Shown piece by piece: positions 17,886 to 33,102 of a stretch of DNA of 37,487 bases. The notes beneath the pieces were generated by a model. That model had not been told where the DNA came from. It saw only the letters and a program-made list of their open reading frames with translations, and did not search any database. Within the stretch, counting starts at the first letter, position 1. Every line of letters begins with the position of its first letter. Origin of the DNA: a virus. The DNA lies in IMG/VR virus record IMGVR_UViG_3300048672_000271, positions 1-37,487 of that record; one strand, written 5' to 3'. The position numbers were made by a program, and so were the translations under genes.

Positions 17886-18305
17886 TTAATCAGAAGTGGT
17901 GTAAACTGGTGTCAGGATGCAGTTACCGGCCACGGCGGTTGCTGCGGCGGTGGTGGCTTTCAACGATACGATGGTATCAGCCGTTACGGTGATCGGTCCA
18001 CCTGTGCAAGCAAAGAACGTCCCTGCTTTGGCTGTGGCGTTGGTGATACCGGCCTGAACAACGGTTGTACCGATAAGCACCGACCAGACAAGAGCCTCAG
18101 AGCCGGAGTCAAGGTCATCGGTAAAGAAGAAAAAGCCAAAGGTTGTGGAGTTAGCCGGTACTTTGGCAACTCCGGTAATGTCGTTAGTGGCGAGGTCGGT
18201 TGTTCTCAGTGCCACGGTGTGAGGTTGCGCAATCAATGCTCCGCAACTTGGCGAGGAAATCAGCGCGGTTGTTGGTACTAAATCGGTAGTTGTCTCGCCG
18301 GCCAA
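17886..18305 (-). CDS. Probable head decoration-type protein (139 aa)
   Basis: AGGAGGCCGACC precedes a TTG at 18305, the only plausible start. The product is Ala/Thr-rich and beta-sheet-like (TVALRTTDLATNDITGVAKV, then FGFFFFTDDLDSG) and ends LTPVYTTSD. It follows the capsid gene apart from the inserted HNH gene, a usual place for capsid decoration proteins. No conserved motif confirms the role. Confidence 0.55.
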   Translation of the reverse strand: MAGETTTDLVPTTALISSPSCGALIAQPHTVALRTTDLATNDITGVAKVPANSTTFGFFFFTDDLDSGSEALVWSVLIGTTVVQAGITNATAKAGTFFACTGGPITVTADTIVSLKATTAAATAVAGNCILTPVYTTSD

Positions 18306-18317
18306 GGTCGGCCTCCT

Positions 18318-18875
18318 TTATACGTGTTTCCAGTTAATGCGCTGGATAACACAGTCTATGGTGGGTTTCGTGACACCGTATCTTTCTGCTAAGTCTTTAC
18401 TATTTACGGTGCCTGCCAGTTGTCTGATTTCTAATACATCTGAAACTACTAATTTATTTGACCATTTGCCGGGAGTATTCCTCCCCTTTTTGACCATATC
18501 CGTCATATTGTCGGAGTCTGTGCCTAAAAACAAATGGGCAGGATTGCAGCAAGAGGGGTTATCGCATTTGTGGCAAACTAGCATTTTATCGGGAATTTTC
18601 CCTACTGTTATCATGTGCATATATCTGTGGCTACGGATTAGTCGTTTGGTTTCCATTCTAAACATTCCGTAGCCCTTAGCACACTTTGCCCCTTGCCACG
18701 GCCAGCAATCATTTTCCCCTCTTACTTCGATCTTTTCAAAGAACCGTTCTTTGTGCGTCTTTTCAAATCTCGTTTTCTTGCTGAGGTCTTGGCCCTTAAT
18801 GTGTCTTGCATAGTGCTTCTCGCAAAACGTCTTATGTGCCGATACCCCGATACATCCTTCTACTGAGCATTTCAT
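18318..18875 (-). CDS. Free-standing HNH homing-type endonuclease (185 aa)
   Basis: The nuclease core is LVCHKCDNPSCCNPAHLFLG (99-118) followed by DSDNMTDMVKKGR. This is the zinc-bound HNH form of I-HmuI-type phage enzymes. The last 40 residues (SDVLEIRQL, SKDLAERYGVTKPTIDCVI) are a helix-turn-helix that would read target DNA. The N-terminus (CSVEGC, FCEKHYARH) is a second zinc finger. It interrupts the late operon between capsid and the next head gene, typical of an inserted mobile endonuclease. It has its own promoter and a hairpin over its start codon. Confidence 0.85.
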   Translation of the reverse strand: MKCSVEGCIGVSAHKTFCEKHYARHIKGQDLSKKTRFEKTHKERFFEKIEVRGENDCWPWQGAKCAKGYGMFRMETKRLIRSHRYMHMITVGKIPDKMLVCHKCDNPSCCNPAHLFLGTDSDNMTDMVKKGRNTPGKWSNKLVVSDVLEIRQLAGTVNSKDLAERYGVTKPTIDCVIQRINWKHV

Positions 18876-18909
18876 AGTGTGCCTCCCCGGTTAAAGTTTG
18901 GCACACTAT
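18874..18909 (-). promoter_or_regulatory. 10-base inverted repeat masking the HNH start codon
   Basis: ATAGTGTGCC and GGCACACTAT flank a 16-base loop. On the minus strand the 3' arm covers the start codon and part of the GGAGG ribosome site. The 5' arm overlaps the -10 box of the gene's own promoter. Read-through late RNA can fold this hairpin, while RNA started at the internal promoter lacks the 5' arm. Confidence 0.7.
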
Positions 18910-18933
18910 AACATACTTGTCAGCGGTTGTATA
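18905..18933 (-). promoter_or_regulatory. Promoter for the HNH endonuclease gene
   Basis: The minus strand reads TATACA (18933-18928), 17 bases, TATAGT (18910-18905), with TGT just before the -10 box (extended -10). The start site would fall near 18898, inside the hairpin loop. The -35 match is modest (4 of 6) but the -10 is good. Confidence 0.5.
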
Positions 18934-18944
18934 CTATCTTTGTG

Positions 18945-20066
18945 TTATGCGCTGGCAAGTGCCGGACATGCGAAGAAGCCGGTAAAAATGCCGTTGTCTT
19001 TAGGGGTGGTCGTGTCCACGGTTGCGTCGGTGCCAAACCGCAGTTTTTCAATGCCCCTGACTTCCTGAATGGCGCAGCCCTGCTTGTCACCGTAATCAGT
19101 ATCGTCAGTGATGGTCTTGCTGCGTTGAGCTACCAAGAAACCAAGAGCCTGAGAACCGCAGAGGAACACAGGAGAAACATCGGCAGAAGTCCCACCGGCG
19201 ATGGCGAGGTCTGGAATTTCAGGAATCTCACGGATAATCATGCCGTTGGCAATCAGGGAATCGCCGGTAAATAGCGGGTTGTCGAGGCCGCGAACCCTTG
19301 CGTCCTTGTTGAATCCGACGATTGTAGCATCTTCGGAGAAGCGTTTGAAGGCTTTGGAACCGCAGAAAACGGCGTACCACTCTTCGTCACCATTGACCAT
19401 CGTCGGGCGTATGGCGGGGGAGGCGAGTTTCGCCAAAGACTTCATCAGGTTCAAACGGGCATAGGTCGGCAGGTCACCGGAGTCATCCACGTTGCCTACT
19501 GCGGTTGCAAAGGTTGTGGAGTAGTTGGAAACAGCGGACCCGAAAAGTACGCGGTCCACATTGGCGGTAACCCATGCATCCTGCGCGGCGGTGATAACGC
19601 CAGCATCGGAAGCCTGCCAGATGGTTTTGAATCCTGAATCATAATGCCCTGCAACTTGGCCGAGCGCGGAAACGATGTCATTTTTTGTAATGCGCAGAAT
19701 CCAGTCATTGAGAACGACTTTGGAAGCATTACGCAGACTGATTGCACTGTACTGCTCGTCGATTTCCGGCACAACTACCGCGTTACGGACTTTATCAACG
19801 GTTACGGGGCAAGAACGGCTGTTCATTTTCTCTTCTTGCCCTACCAGTGTTGCCGAACCTCTTTTGCCTGCGCCGGTCAGGGCGTTGACCAGTGTAAAAG
19901 TATCGGTTTTTCCCGGCTTGAGGGTGAGGGTTTCTTTCATCTGGATGATTGCGTTCTCATCCGTACCCATGTATTTTTTGAAGCGGTTGGCCCTGATGTA
20001 TTCGGTGTAAAACTTCTCGTCCCACTGCTGGACGGTCAAACCGGCTGCTACGGCTGTATTTGCCAT
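18945..20066 (-). CDS. Major capsid protein, DUF4043/N4-gp56-like (373 aa)
   Basis: GGAGAAAACATC precedes the ATG at 20066. The N-terminal arm (MANTAVAAGLTVQQWDEKFY) and LKPGKTDTFTLVNALTGAGK, then GSATLVGQEEKMN and RNAVVVPEIDEQY, match the DUF4043 group of HK97-fold coat proteins that includes N4 gp56. The length is normal for the group. It follows the scaffold gene, as in most podoviruses. It forms the capsid shell, and the rest of the head cluster is consistent. In P22 itself the coat protein belongs to a different sequence family. Confidence 0.85.
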   Translation of the reverse strand: MANTAVAAGLTVQQWDEKFYTEYIRANRFKKYMGTDENAIIQMKETLTLKPGKTDTFTLVNALTGAGKRGSATLVGQEEKMNSRSCPVTVDKVRNAVVVPEIDEQYSAISLRNASKVVLNDWILRITKNDIVSALGQVAGHYDSGFKTIWQASDAGVITAAQDAWVTANVDRVLFGSAVSNYSTTFATAVGNVDDSGDLPTYARLNLMKSLAKLASPAIRPTMVNGDEEWYAVFCGSKAFKRFSEDATIVGFNKDARVRGLDNPLFTGDSLIANGMIIREIPEIPDLAIAGGTSADVSPVFLCGSQALGFLVAQRSKTITDDTDYGDKQGCAIQEVRGIEKLRFGTDATVDTTTPKDNGIFTGFFACPALASA

Positions 20067-20108
20067 GATGTTTTCTCCGGGTGCCTGTTCTGGCACAAAG
20101 GGTTAGGG

Positions 20109-27781: not shown

Positions 27782-28366
27782 TTATCTCGACTGACTACCC
27801 CAATGTAAAACCATCGCTTTTGCCACTCCATCAAAGGTTTTACTTCTGTCCCGTTTCCTGTTGGGTCCTGGCGGCATCTTCCACACCCTCTGTTCTCTGC
27901 CGTCAACTTTGTTTGTAGGATGTAGTGGTTGCAGGTTGTGAAGTGCAAAGCCGGTTTTTTTGGTTTCTCCGTGGCCGTGGTCATGCGGCTGGATATAGTG
28001 GACATTCGGGAGGTACTTAAAAATGACGCTTACCGGATTTTCCAGCGCCACCCTATCACTATGTTTCTTTGCCAATTCCCAAAGCGAAAGCGTCCAGTTA
28101 ATAGCATTAATTCTTTCTTGGTGACGGGGCATGTTAGTGCCATACCATCTATTGCCACTTACAGCCATTGCGGTACAGTCGGGATGCAAAATAATTAAGC
28201 CCCACTGTCTAGACGGTATGACCGCCATAATATCCTGCTGATAGTGCCATGCCGGATTGCCGCGAGTCGGTTGCAGGTCGCATGAATATGCCTCATATCC
28301 AGCATCACGAAAAGCCTTACAAACCACCTGGCTTTCTTCGCACCCTATTAAAATTGGACCATCCAT
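27782..28366 (-). CDS. DNA cytosine-C5 methyltransferase-like protein (194 aa)
   Basis: ILIGCEESQVVCKAFRDAGY matches the cofactor strand of C5 methylases in its compact phage form. HPDCTAMAVSGNRWYG carries the candidate catalytic Cys64 with PDC in place of the usual PPC. VALENPVS corresponds to the ENV motif (Glu109). The protein is about half the size of classical enzymes and lacks a clear target-recognition domain. GAAAGGAGATGAGCG precedes the ATG. It may protect phage DNA, but activity is uncertain. Confidence 0.65.
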   Translation of the reverse strand: MDGPILIGCEESQVVCKAFRDAGYEAYSCDLQPTRGNPAWHYQQDIMAVIPSRQWGLIILHPDCTAMAVSGNRWYGTNMPRHQERINAINWTLSLWELAKKHSDRVALENPVSVIFKYLPNVHYIQPHDHGHGETKKTGFALHNLQPLHPTNKVDGREQRVWKMPPGPNRKRDRSKTFDGVAKAMVLHWGSQSR

Positions 28367-31132: not shown

Positions 31133-31417
31133 TTATTTTTGTGCTTGTTCAAGATATTTGCGCCTGGTGAGTTCCAATTTCATGTACCCTGCATCCAAAA
31201 CATCAACCACTCCGTATCGCTTGAGCAGTTTAATTGAAACGTTCATTACATCGATACACTCGCCTATGCGGTCGGCTGTATCAGATTCCTGCAAGATAGC
31301 CCATTGAAGCTCTTGCATTTCCTCCATCAGTTTATCTTCTACTTCTTCAACCGTTGCTGTAGGGCAGAACTGCTTATCAAAATGGCTGTAGTGTAACAAA
31401 TATTCGTGCATGTCCAT
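31133..31417 (-). CDS. MazG-like nucleotide pyrophosphohydrolase (94 aa)
   Basis: AGGAGG lies seven bases upstream of the ATG at 31417 (MDMHEYLLHYSHFDKQFCPT). The helices KLMEEMQELQWAI and RIGECIDVMNVSIKLLKRYG carry the EExxE and ExxD acidic pairs that bind magnesium in all-alpha NTP pyrophosphatases. Phage members hydrolyse NTPs or ppGpp to alter host metabolism. The protein is a little short, and the second metal-binding helix is less conserved. Last gene of the first early transcript. Confidence 0.65.
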   Translation of the reverse strand: MDMHEYLLHYSHFDKQFCPTATVEEVEDKLMEEMQELQWAILQESDTADRIGECIDVMNVSIKLLKRYGVVDVLDAGYMKLELTRRKYLEQAQK

Positions 31418-31953
31418 CAGTGAACCTCCTTTAGTTTGGAACGGTAATGGTCGCGGATGGTGATTAATTCTTCGATTGTGTATTTCTTCGGCTCGTGCGG
31501 CCCTTCCAGCCATTCAACGCGGTCAAGGCCGATCTTCTTAATCAGCGAAATGCGGTAGAGCGCGATATTGCCTGACAAGTGGTTATTACAAGCTGAACAT
31601 TGTTTATGGTTATTGTCCTCTTCAAACCTGAGTTCTGGCCGCGCTCCGGTGGATAGGTAGTGACCGGCATGGTACTGTCCGGTGTGATGCCTACCGCAAG
31701 AGATACACGGCAGGGCTTCATCACGTTTGCGGATATAAGCGTTAAATGCTACCTGTGCCAGCTTTAACCAATCGCGCCGTGATCTTGCCTTGACCTTTGC
31801 CGCTAAATGCTCTCTACGGGCACGTTTAGCCTTGTCTCGCTGCATTAATTCGATAGCACAAGCAGGGTTTGAGCAAGTCTTTTGAGTGACAGACCACTTC
31901 TTGTATTCGCCTTCGCAACCTTCACTCTTTATCCGGCACTTGGTGAGTCTCAT
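31417..31953 (-). CDS. ninG: NinG/Rap-like recombination endonuclease (178 aa)
   Basis: The N-terminal zinc region (MRLTKCRIKSEGCEGEYKKW, CSNPACAIE) and the C-terminal CISCGRHHTGQYHAGHYLST, with LRFEEDNNHKQCSACNNHLS, match NinG (Rap) proteins. In lambda Rap is a Holliday-junction and D-loop endonuclease used in phage recombination. The ATG overlaps the methylase stop. NinB and an annealing protein lie upstream, as expected for this module. The length is in the family range (about 200 residues). Confidence 0.85.
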   Translation of the reverse strand: MRLTKCRIKSEGCEGEYKKWSVTQKTCSNPACAIELMQRDKAKRARREHLAAKVKARSRRDWLKLAQVAFNAYIRKRDEALPCISCGRHHTGQYHAGHYLSTGARPELRFEEDNNHKQCSACNNHLSGNIALYRISLIKKIGLDRVEWLEGPHEPKKYTIEELITIRDHYRSKLKEVH

Positions 31954-32591
31954 AGGGATAGCTTTAACTGCTGTTGGCTGCGTTCGATACGTTCAACCGC
32001 CGCCGTGAAATACTCTGAATCTATTTCGTATGCCGTGATACTAAAACCCATATCTAAACAGGCTATTGATAGACTGCCGCTGCCGTGGTGAGTATCTAGG
32101 ATGGTGTCACCGGGTTTGGCAAACATTTGCAATACTTTTTTATAGAGCATTACCGGCTTTTGGCAAACATGCGCCCGATCTTCGGTAGACTGGCTAGAAT
32201 GGTTTATCACTTTGGCATTGCGATCGAATGAGGTTAGCGCCAGTTCGCAATCTGCCATTGTGTGCATACCTGACATATTAGGTTTGACCCATGATATGAA
32301 ACAACGGGCAGGCTTTATGAACTCAGTGAAGAAGTTTCCGCCCCATATTATTTGATTGACGCTCACCCTTCTTAGTTCGTCAAAATATTCTTTGTCGGGC
32401 GCAACATCCCACGCCGCACCCTTCTTTTGGTATTTTACTGACCATGTACCGCCAGCGACAAGGGCCTCGCCTATCCCATACGGCGGATCAACAATCGCAA
32501 GGGAAAAGGCATTATCCGGCATGTCCCGCATAGCCTCAAGGCAACAGCCCAGATACAGAGTCGCCCCGCCTATTATCACCGGGGAGGTCAT
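31950..32591 (-). CDS. DNA N6-adenine or N4-cytosine methyltransferase (213 aa)
   Basis: AGGGGCAA precedes the ATG at 32591 (MTSPVIIGGATLYLGCCLEA). Motif IV is DPPYGIG (35-41) and the cofactor motif DTHHGSGSLSIAC (166-178) follows it, so this is the beta-class order. DPPY fits adenine methylases but also some N4-cytosine enzymes. It probably masks phage DNA from host restriction or tags it for packaging. The alternative upstream start lies in a region used by a 40-codon gene in another frame. Confidence 0.85.
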   Translation of the reverse strand: MTSPVIIGGATLYLGCCLEAMRDMPDNAFSLAIVDPPYGIGEALVAGGTWSVKYQKKGAAWDVAPDKEYFDELRRVSVNQIIWGGNFFTEFIKPARCFISWVKPNMSGMHTMADCELALTSFDRNAKVINHSSQSTEDRAHVCQKPVMLYKKVLQMFAKPGDTILDTHHGSGSLSIACLDMGFSITAYEIDSEYFTAAVERIERSQQQLKLSL

Positions 32592-32710
32592 TTGCCCCTC
32601 TTCTTCTGCGCTCTGCGCTGGTGCCTGTTGGTGGGAGTGGTAATTTCTTCCTCTCCGTCCATCTGCTTTGCTATCATGCTGGTTAGTGTCTTGATGCGTA
32701 GGGGGTTCAT
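32588..32710 (-). CDS. 40-aa basic protein between regulator and methylase
   Basis: The frame starts at 32710 (MNPLRIKTLTSMIAKQMDGE) and ends NRHQRRAQKKRGK, a strongly basic tail. Its start overlaps the previous stop (ATGA) and its stop overlaps the methylase start (ATGA). This coupling supports a real gene. Function is unknown; the tail could bind nucleic acid. Confidence 0.5.
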   Translation of the reverse strand: MNPLRIKTLTSMIAKQMDGEEEITTPTNRHQRRAQKKRGK

Positions 32711-33102
32711 GCTGTGGCCCTTTTCCTTCCTCTTTTGCCCAATAACATACCATCCATTATCCGGCCAAAGTGTTTTTGAAGTGTTGTATGGTTCATGCTG
32801 AATTCCAGCCGGTCAACAATGGCTCTGAAAGAAACACCCTTTACCCTCAGTTGCTTAATCGTTTCAAGGTTGGCAGAAACAATCCCATGTGCGTCAATTT
32901 GCTCGATGCACCTCTTGGGTTTGACAATCTTCGGTTTCGGCATAGGCTCGACTTCGTAATCCTCCCATGTGCCACAAAGAATACATTTGTAGCCCACTAT
33001 CCTGCCGCTGTCGGCTTCTTCGTCACTATGGAAAGAACTAGCCCATCCAATGTCGTCAGCGAGGTACATCAAGCCGGTGGAGCATTTAGTGCATGGTTTC
33101 AT
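32707..33102 (-). CDS. Zinc-ribbon plus helix-turn-helix protein (131 aa), possible regulator
   Basis: The ATG at 33102 (MKPCTKCSTGLMYLADDIGW) and KCILCGTWEDYE give a C-x2-C ... C-x2-C ribbon over residues 4-45. Residues about 78-115 (LETIKQLRVKGVSFRAIVDR) look like a helix-turn-helix. The C-terminus is basic (GKRGRKRATA). This layout fits a DNA-binding regulator, perhaps of late genes, but no relative is recognised. It lies between the 58-residue gene and the methylase unit. Confidence 0.6.
   Translation of the reverse strand: MKPCTKCSTGLMYLADDIGWASSFHSDEEADSGRIVGYKCILCGTWEDYEVEPMPKPKIVKPKRCIEQIDAHGIVSANLETIKQLRVKGVSFRAIVDRLEFSMNHTTLQKHFGRIMDGMLLGKRGRKRATA

Follow-up and report, generated by a model that had tools for sequence, protein, structure and literature searches.

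The way in which selfish nucleases persist within essential phage operons that are strongly expressed has been worked out in detail mainly in T4-type phages, and the present locus places a putative gene of this kind between two structural genes of another kind of phage. The window, which here means the whole stretch of DNA analysed (37,487 bases of a virus record), carries its structural genes on the minus strand, and profile matches from Pfam and PHROG identified a P22-type portal, a terminase and a major capsid gene of the Phage_capsid_3 type. An HNH endonuclease gene lies between the capsid gene and that of a probable capsid cement protein (Table 1). Its product passes the HNH_3 family cut-off (42.5 bits against PF13392, cut-off 24.8), has the conserved columns in the alignment, and combines an N-terminal CX4CX9CX2H knuckle, the HNH_3 domain and a C-terminal tail that looks HTH-like by eye. 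Further genes of the window, located upstream of the structural ones, encode two DNA methyltransferases and a NinG/Rap junction endonuclease (27782-28366, 31950-32753, 31417-31953).

An HNH gene occupies the capsid-cement junction in the window and in the related phages L004, L005 and L006/L007, and is absent from the junction in L001, L002, L003 and L008, in which the cement gene comes directly after the capsid gene. Capsid identity to the window is 76-78% in the former group and 77-90% in the latter. Variable presence at a fixed junction among close relatives indicates a polymorphic insertion, as expected for a mobile nuclease. The HNH gene of the window is free-standing, and its product is a putative homing endonuclease of the HNH_3 kind. 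The junction HNH genes of the relatives are diverged (42-46% identical). In three of the HNH-less phages (L001, L003 and L008), GC-rich hairpins such as GGGGGGCGATAAGCCCCCC fill the capsid-cement gap; they are missing from the HNH-carrying phages, implying that the HNH insertion replaced them.

Table 1. Positions of the features around the HNH start, given in window coordinates
Feature	Position	Strand	Remarks
Major capsid protein gene (Phage_capsid_3)	18945..20096	-	Pfam PF13252, E=1.8e-39; phrog_334; directly upstream of HNH gene
Capsid stop codon	18947-18945	-	
-35-like element TATACA	18933-18928	-	Sequence match, 4/6
Extended -10 TG-T-TATAGT	18913-18905	-	TATAGT (18910-18905) overlaps 5' arm
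Hairpin 5' arm ATAGTGTGCC	18909-18900	-	Extendable to 18917
Hairpin loop, 16 nt	18884..18899	-	Contains predicted transcription start, ~18898
HNH Shine-Dalgarno (SD) GGGGAGG	18888-18882	-	Final GG within 3' arm
Hairpin 3' arm GGCACACTAT	18883-18874	-	Extendable to 18866; covers part of SD and start codon
HNH start codon AUG	18875-18873	-	A and U within 3' arm
HNH endonuclease gene, 185 aa	18318..18875	-	PF13392, E=5e-11; phrog_59, E=4e-31
Probable capsid cement protein gene	17886..18305	-	Synteny with L001-L003, L008 and the Pseudanabaena phage Pam5 cement gene; next gene after HNH

According to the sequence-only reading, a 10-base inverted repeat covers the HNH start codon and part of the ribosome site, the -10 box of a promoter lies in its 5' arm, and the predicted transcription start falls in the loop. 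The coordinates of the repeat proved correct, the two arms forming 10/10 Watson-Crick pairs on the minus strand, and the stem can be extended to 18 columns with 15 Watson-Crick pairs, 2 G-U pairs and 1 mismatch (18917-18900 with 18883-18866). Folding predictions also agree with the two RNA states proposed in that reading. Over 81 nt, the readthrough RNA reaches a predicted -26.3 kcal/mol (z=-3.9), a stability equalled by 0/200 shuffles, and the hairpin dominates the fold of a 440-nt capsid-HNH RNA (pair probability 0.91-1.0). An RNA begun at 18898 is predicted to fold at only -1.5 kcal/mol (z=+1.7), leaving the start region open. Moreover, the capsid stop codon, upstream of the hairpin, is separated by ~27 nt from the outermost pair that could form and by 35 nt from the core arm; judging from the size of the ribosome footprint, ribosomes terminating there should leave the hairpin unmelted. 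Repeat length alone was dropped as evidence: the window has a single perfect 10-bp repeat with a loop of 3-20, and shuffled windows have 0-3 (~0.75 on average). A length of 10 bp is therefore unremarkable for 37 kb, and the case rests on the position of the hairpin and its recurrence. A separate 9-nt perfect complementarity exists between the capsid 3' coding region (19030-19038, GTTTGGCAC) and the 5' arm and loop of the hairpin (18896-18904, GTGCCAAAC), which could free the ribosome-binding site (RBS) by alternative pairing when the capsid gene is untranslated, or could be due to chance.

The promoter claimed to be nested in this hairpin is present as a sequence match, comprising TATACA, a 17-nt spacer ending in TGT, and TATAGT, with the TG one base ahead of the -10 box. 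The start, placed by its distance from the -10 box, would yield a transcript that lacks the 5' arm. Of the 37,427 minus-strand positions scored, that of this promoter has the 10th-best sigma70 score under E. coli rules, which may fit the host imperfectly. The promoter has the form of a sigma70 promoter with a -35 element and an extended -10 box, and not that of a T4 late promoter.

Control of the I-TevI type, exerted through a host-type promoter, is probable for this gene, which would be silent on readthrough RNA and translated from the RNA of the nested promoter. The HNH gene may have replaced the capsid-cement intergenic region and brought its own insulated expression cassette. Readthrough RNA from the capsid gene would carry both arms, so that the hairpin would hide the end of the SD and the AUG, and the nuclease would stay untranslated. 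On the other hand, an RNA polymerase with the housekeeping sigma factor would initiate at the promoter that draws its -10 box from the 5' arm, and the short RNA, beginning in the loop without that arm, would leave the SD and AUG accessible for translation. The nested promoter, rather than the capsid transcript, would then set the level of the nuclease.

The arrangement recurs at the same junction in other phages. The L006 leader has different arms (CATTGTGGTATCT/AGATACCACAATG) with TTGACT-18-TATCTT preceded by TGG, and is as clear as that of the window. The stems in L004 and L005 are shorter and weaker, with TGA-TACTAT and folding z-scores of -1.7 and +0.8, which are not striking. A more distant podovirus, MW202691 (a metagenome genome), carries CCGTATAATG.TCGGG/TCCCG.CATTATACGG and TTGCAC-18-TATAAT between its coat gene and an HNH gene. 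No hairpin-promoter arrangement was found at the junction of the four HNH-less relatives.

A wider survey compared 252 distinct endonuclease leaders with 1344 leaders of neighbouring genes on the same contigs. Homologous endonucleases were gathered in two independent ways, through protein similarity and through a DNA pattern matching the N-terminal zinc knuckle, neither of them drawing on the leader. The full arrangement was defined as a stem score of at least 24 and a promoter score of at least 7, with the promoter start in the interval from the middle of the 5' arm to where the 3' arm begins; scores and thresholds were fixed after the first examples were known, start codons were set by rule, and the sigma70 weights were E. 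coli-like. With the same scoring, the T4 I-TevI leader, used as a positive control, reaches 27.5 and twelve other T4 leaders at most 14. The full arrangement was found in 13/252 endonuclease leaders and 4/1344 controls (p=3.8e-8). Among leaders matched for the gap to an upstream same-strand gene (40-130 nt), the counts were 13/88 and 3/344, and with GC<0.5 in addition, 12/44 and 3/129. Stem scores >30 occurred in seven endonucleases of the first sample and in 0/644 controls, and scores of at least 30 in 4/62 endonucleases and 1/644 controls of the second (p=2.5e-4); the last subsample, which was small, gave 1/31 at a stem score of at least 24 and 2/31 at 20 or above. Pooled mean stem scores hardly differ between endonucleases and controls, the difference being carried by the upper tail. 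With ~5-7% of the surveyed endonuclease leaders showing it, the full arrangement is a recurrent option among endonucleases and no rule.

The positives are mutually <50% identical (at least 80 residues compared), and 17/18 of those measured have a same-strand gene 43-107 nt upstream. Their nuclease families include HNH_3 and, in L332, Endonuclease VII, whose leader promoter is TTGAAA-17-TATAAC with TGG. Other leader promoters are TTGACA-17-TATATT (L383), TTGACA-17-TATGCT (L372, stem 20), TTGAAA-17-TATAAT (L087) and TTGACT-17-TATTTT (L072). The same arrangement was present in a LAGLIDADG endonuclease gene (L335, minus strand, start 1773), with CTTTCGGCTATAA/TTATAGCCGGGAG and a 5' arm that ends in TATAAT; this gene, whose CX4CX9CX2H knuckles are C-terminal, was found via a downstream knuckle and lies outside the 252 leaders. 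Among the ten looser control matches, the proteins of two, L333 (6667) and L342 (4251), themselves look HNH-like by eye, although neither has a Pfam match.

About 20 annotated phage endonuclease leaders were checked for a clear case in a cultured phage, and MW202691 alone was strong, but its genome is metagenomic. A weak candidate is the endonuclease VII leader of Pectobacterium phage Jarilo (L428, 1225), whose stem scores 19.5 and to which no promoter was assigned; the gene lies between two DNA polymerase fragments, AGTGGCCTTT/GGAGGTCACT abut its AUG, and it may offer a cultured test case. Several other leaders show related features. That of a knuckle protein in L293 (1794) has a consensus TTGACA and a 10-bp repeat that overlaps the promoter and ends 7 nt ahead of the SD, resembling the non-sequestering seg43(25) case. 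In the L328 leader (minus strand, start 955), ATACCTCCTT could pair with either an upstream GAGGTAT or the SD AAGGAG, a possible two-state switch. Several tandem CX4CX9CX2HY knuckles occur in proteins or gene clusters of L286, L291 and L337.

Instead of an RNA hairpin, the inverted repeat could be a DNA operator: the gene would be autoregulated through binding of the nuclease, or of some other repressor, to the dyad that overlies the promoter. The overlap of repeat and promoter, the HTH-like tail of the HNH protein and the documented autorepression of I-TevI at its own promoter (PMC2988022) are in favor of this explanation, which is nevertheless unlikely. When stems were picked on Watson-Crick pairs alone and the remaining positions were then counted, the ratio of G-U to A-C was 26:8 in endonucleases and 20:27 in controls; a DNA dyad predicts no such bias, and the G-U excess favors pairing in RNA. 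Moreover, homologues at the same site differ in their arm sequences. The leader was also compared, as a possible operator or homing-site copy, with the L001 empty site, and the similarity (14/19 matching) was not significant, being equalled by 108/1000 shuffles. An operator resembling the homing site is a feature of I-TevI and is not known to be required for mobE or segB. The two layers, RNA hairpin and DNA operator, could coexist.

Slightly less likely still is that the hairpin silences the HNH gene and the promoter match is fortuitous, in which case a little protein would be made through breathing of the hairpin. Matches to sigma70 promoters are indeed common (6 found in 3 kb vs 3.0 +/- 1.6 expected). 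However, in strong-stem endonucleases a promoter starting in the loop scores 8.5 on the coding strand; the mirror strand yields 3.3 (p=4e-6), and strong-stem control genes yield -0.1 (p=1e-5). The placement and strand of the promoter in independent genes are thus far better than in either comparison, and the spacer among the positives is nearly always 17 nt.

A role of the hairpin in RNA processing or stability, or as a weak terminator between the capsid and HNH genes, would fit the GC-rich hairpins in the same gap of HNH-less relatives and the processing of T4 seg/mob transcripts (PMC2988022), but appears very improbable: the arms cover the start codon, Rfam has no match for the hairpin, and its identity as a terminator was rejected, with no U-tract after the stem and no terminator call. 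Least credible is a chance repeat, which the frequency of such repeats in shuffled windows would allow but which the position over RBS and promoter, the counterparts in homologues at this site and the survey statistics oppose.

The preferred explanation, in which the hairpin acts in readthrough RNA and is bypassed from the nested promoter, has an established precedent in T4 I-TevI (PMC2988022, PMC3014915). There, too, the hairpin forms only on upstream-initiated RNA and holds the SD and AUG, and the nested start removes the 5' arm (PMC2988022). However, I-TevI is a GIY-YIG nuclease within a group I intron (td) and uses a T4 late promoter, whereas the present HNH gene is free-standing between two structural genes and has a host sigma70-type promoter. 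The reviews describe similar arrangements, all from T-even phages, for I-TevII, I-TevIII, segB and Aeh1 mobE (PMC2988022, PMC3014915). Aeromonas phage Aeh1 mobE and T4 segB are also genes for free-standing homing endonucleases, and a hairpin that sequesters the RBS has been shown for mobE and implicated for segB (PMC2988022, PMC3014915). Both belong to T-even phages with T4-type promoters; the portal and capsid genes of the phage studied here are P22-like. The leaders of T4 genes e, soc and 49 likewise have a start covered by a hairpin on long RNA, and for gene e the block is lifted when the RNA comes from promoters close by (PMC3014915); they differ in using T4 promoters and are no endonuclease insertion cassettes. 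In the part of the literature that was searched, no account of the arrangement in other than T-even phages was found, which is weak evidence of novelty.

The parallel with T4 drawn in the sequence-only reading is supported in its logic by the recurrence in diverged relatives, the comparisons with matched controls and the mirror strand, the G-U excess and the I-TevI positive control. Its timing may differ, as the promoter is sigma70-type instead of late: the nuclease may be expressed early or constitutively and silenced late, the reverse of T4.

These findings suggest that the start-masking hairpin with a nested promoter, known from T4-type phages, is more widespread than documented. What is new relative to the T4 cases is the host-type promoter, the free-standing gene at a capsid-cement junction, and the occurrence in unrelated phages and nuclease families. 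A single set of bases supplies the promoter box, the antisense of the ribosome site and one part of a hairpin, a combination that recurs in genes <50% identical and in three nuclease families. It is possible, though somewhat short of probable, that a hairpin with a nested housekeeping promoter is a general cassette, repeatedly evolved or exchanged, of free-standing phage nucleases (HNH_3, Endonuclease VII-like and LAGLIDADG) far beyond T4-like phages, with the T4 timing reversed, so that the nuclease would be made early and silenced on abundant late readthrough RNA. The arrangement offers a signature by which mobile nucleases can be searched for, and may predict which of them are insulated from the host operon and when they would be expressed.
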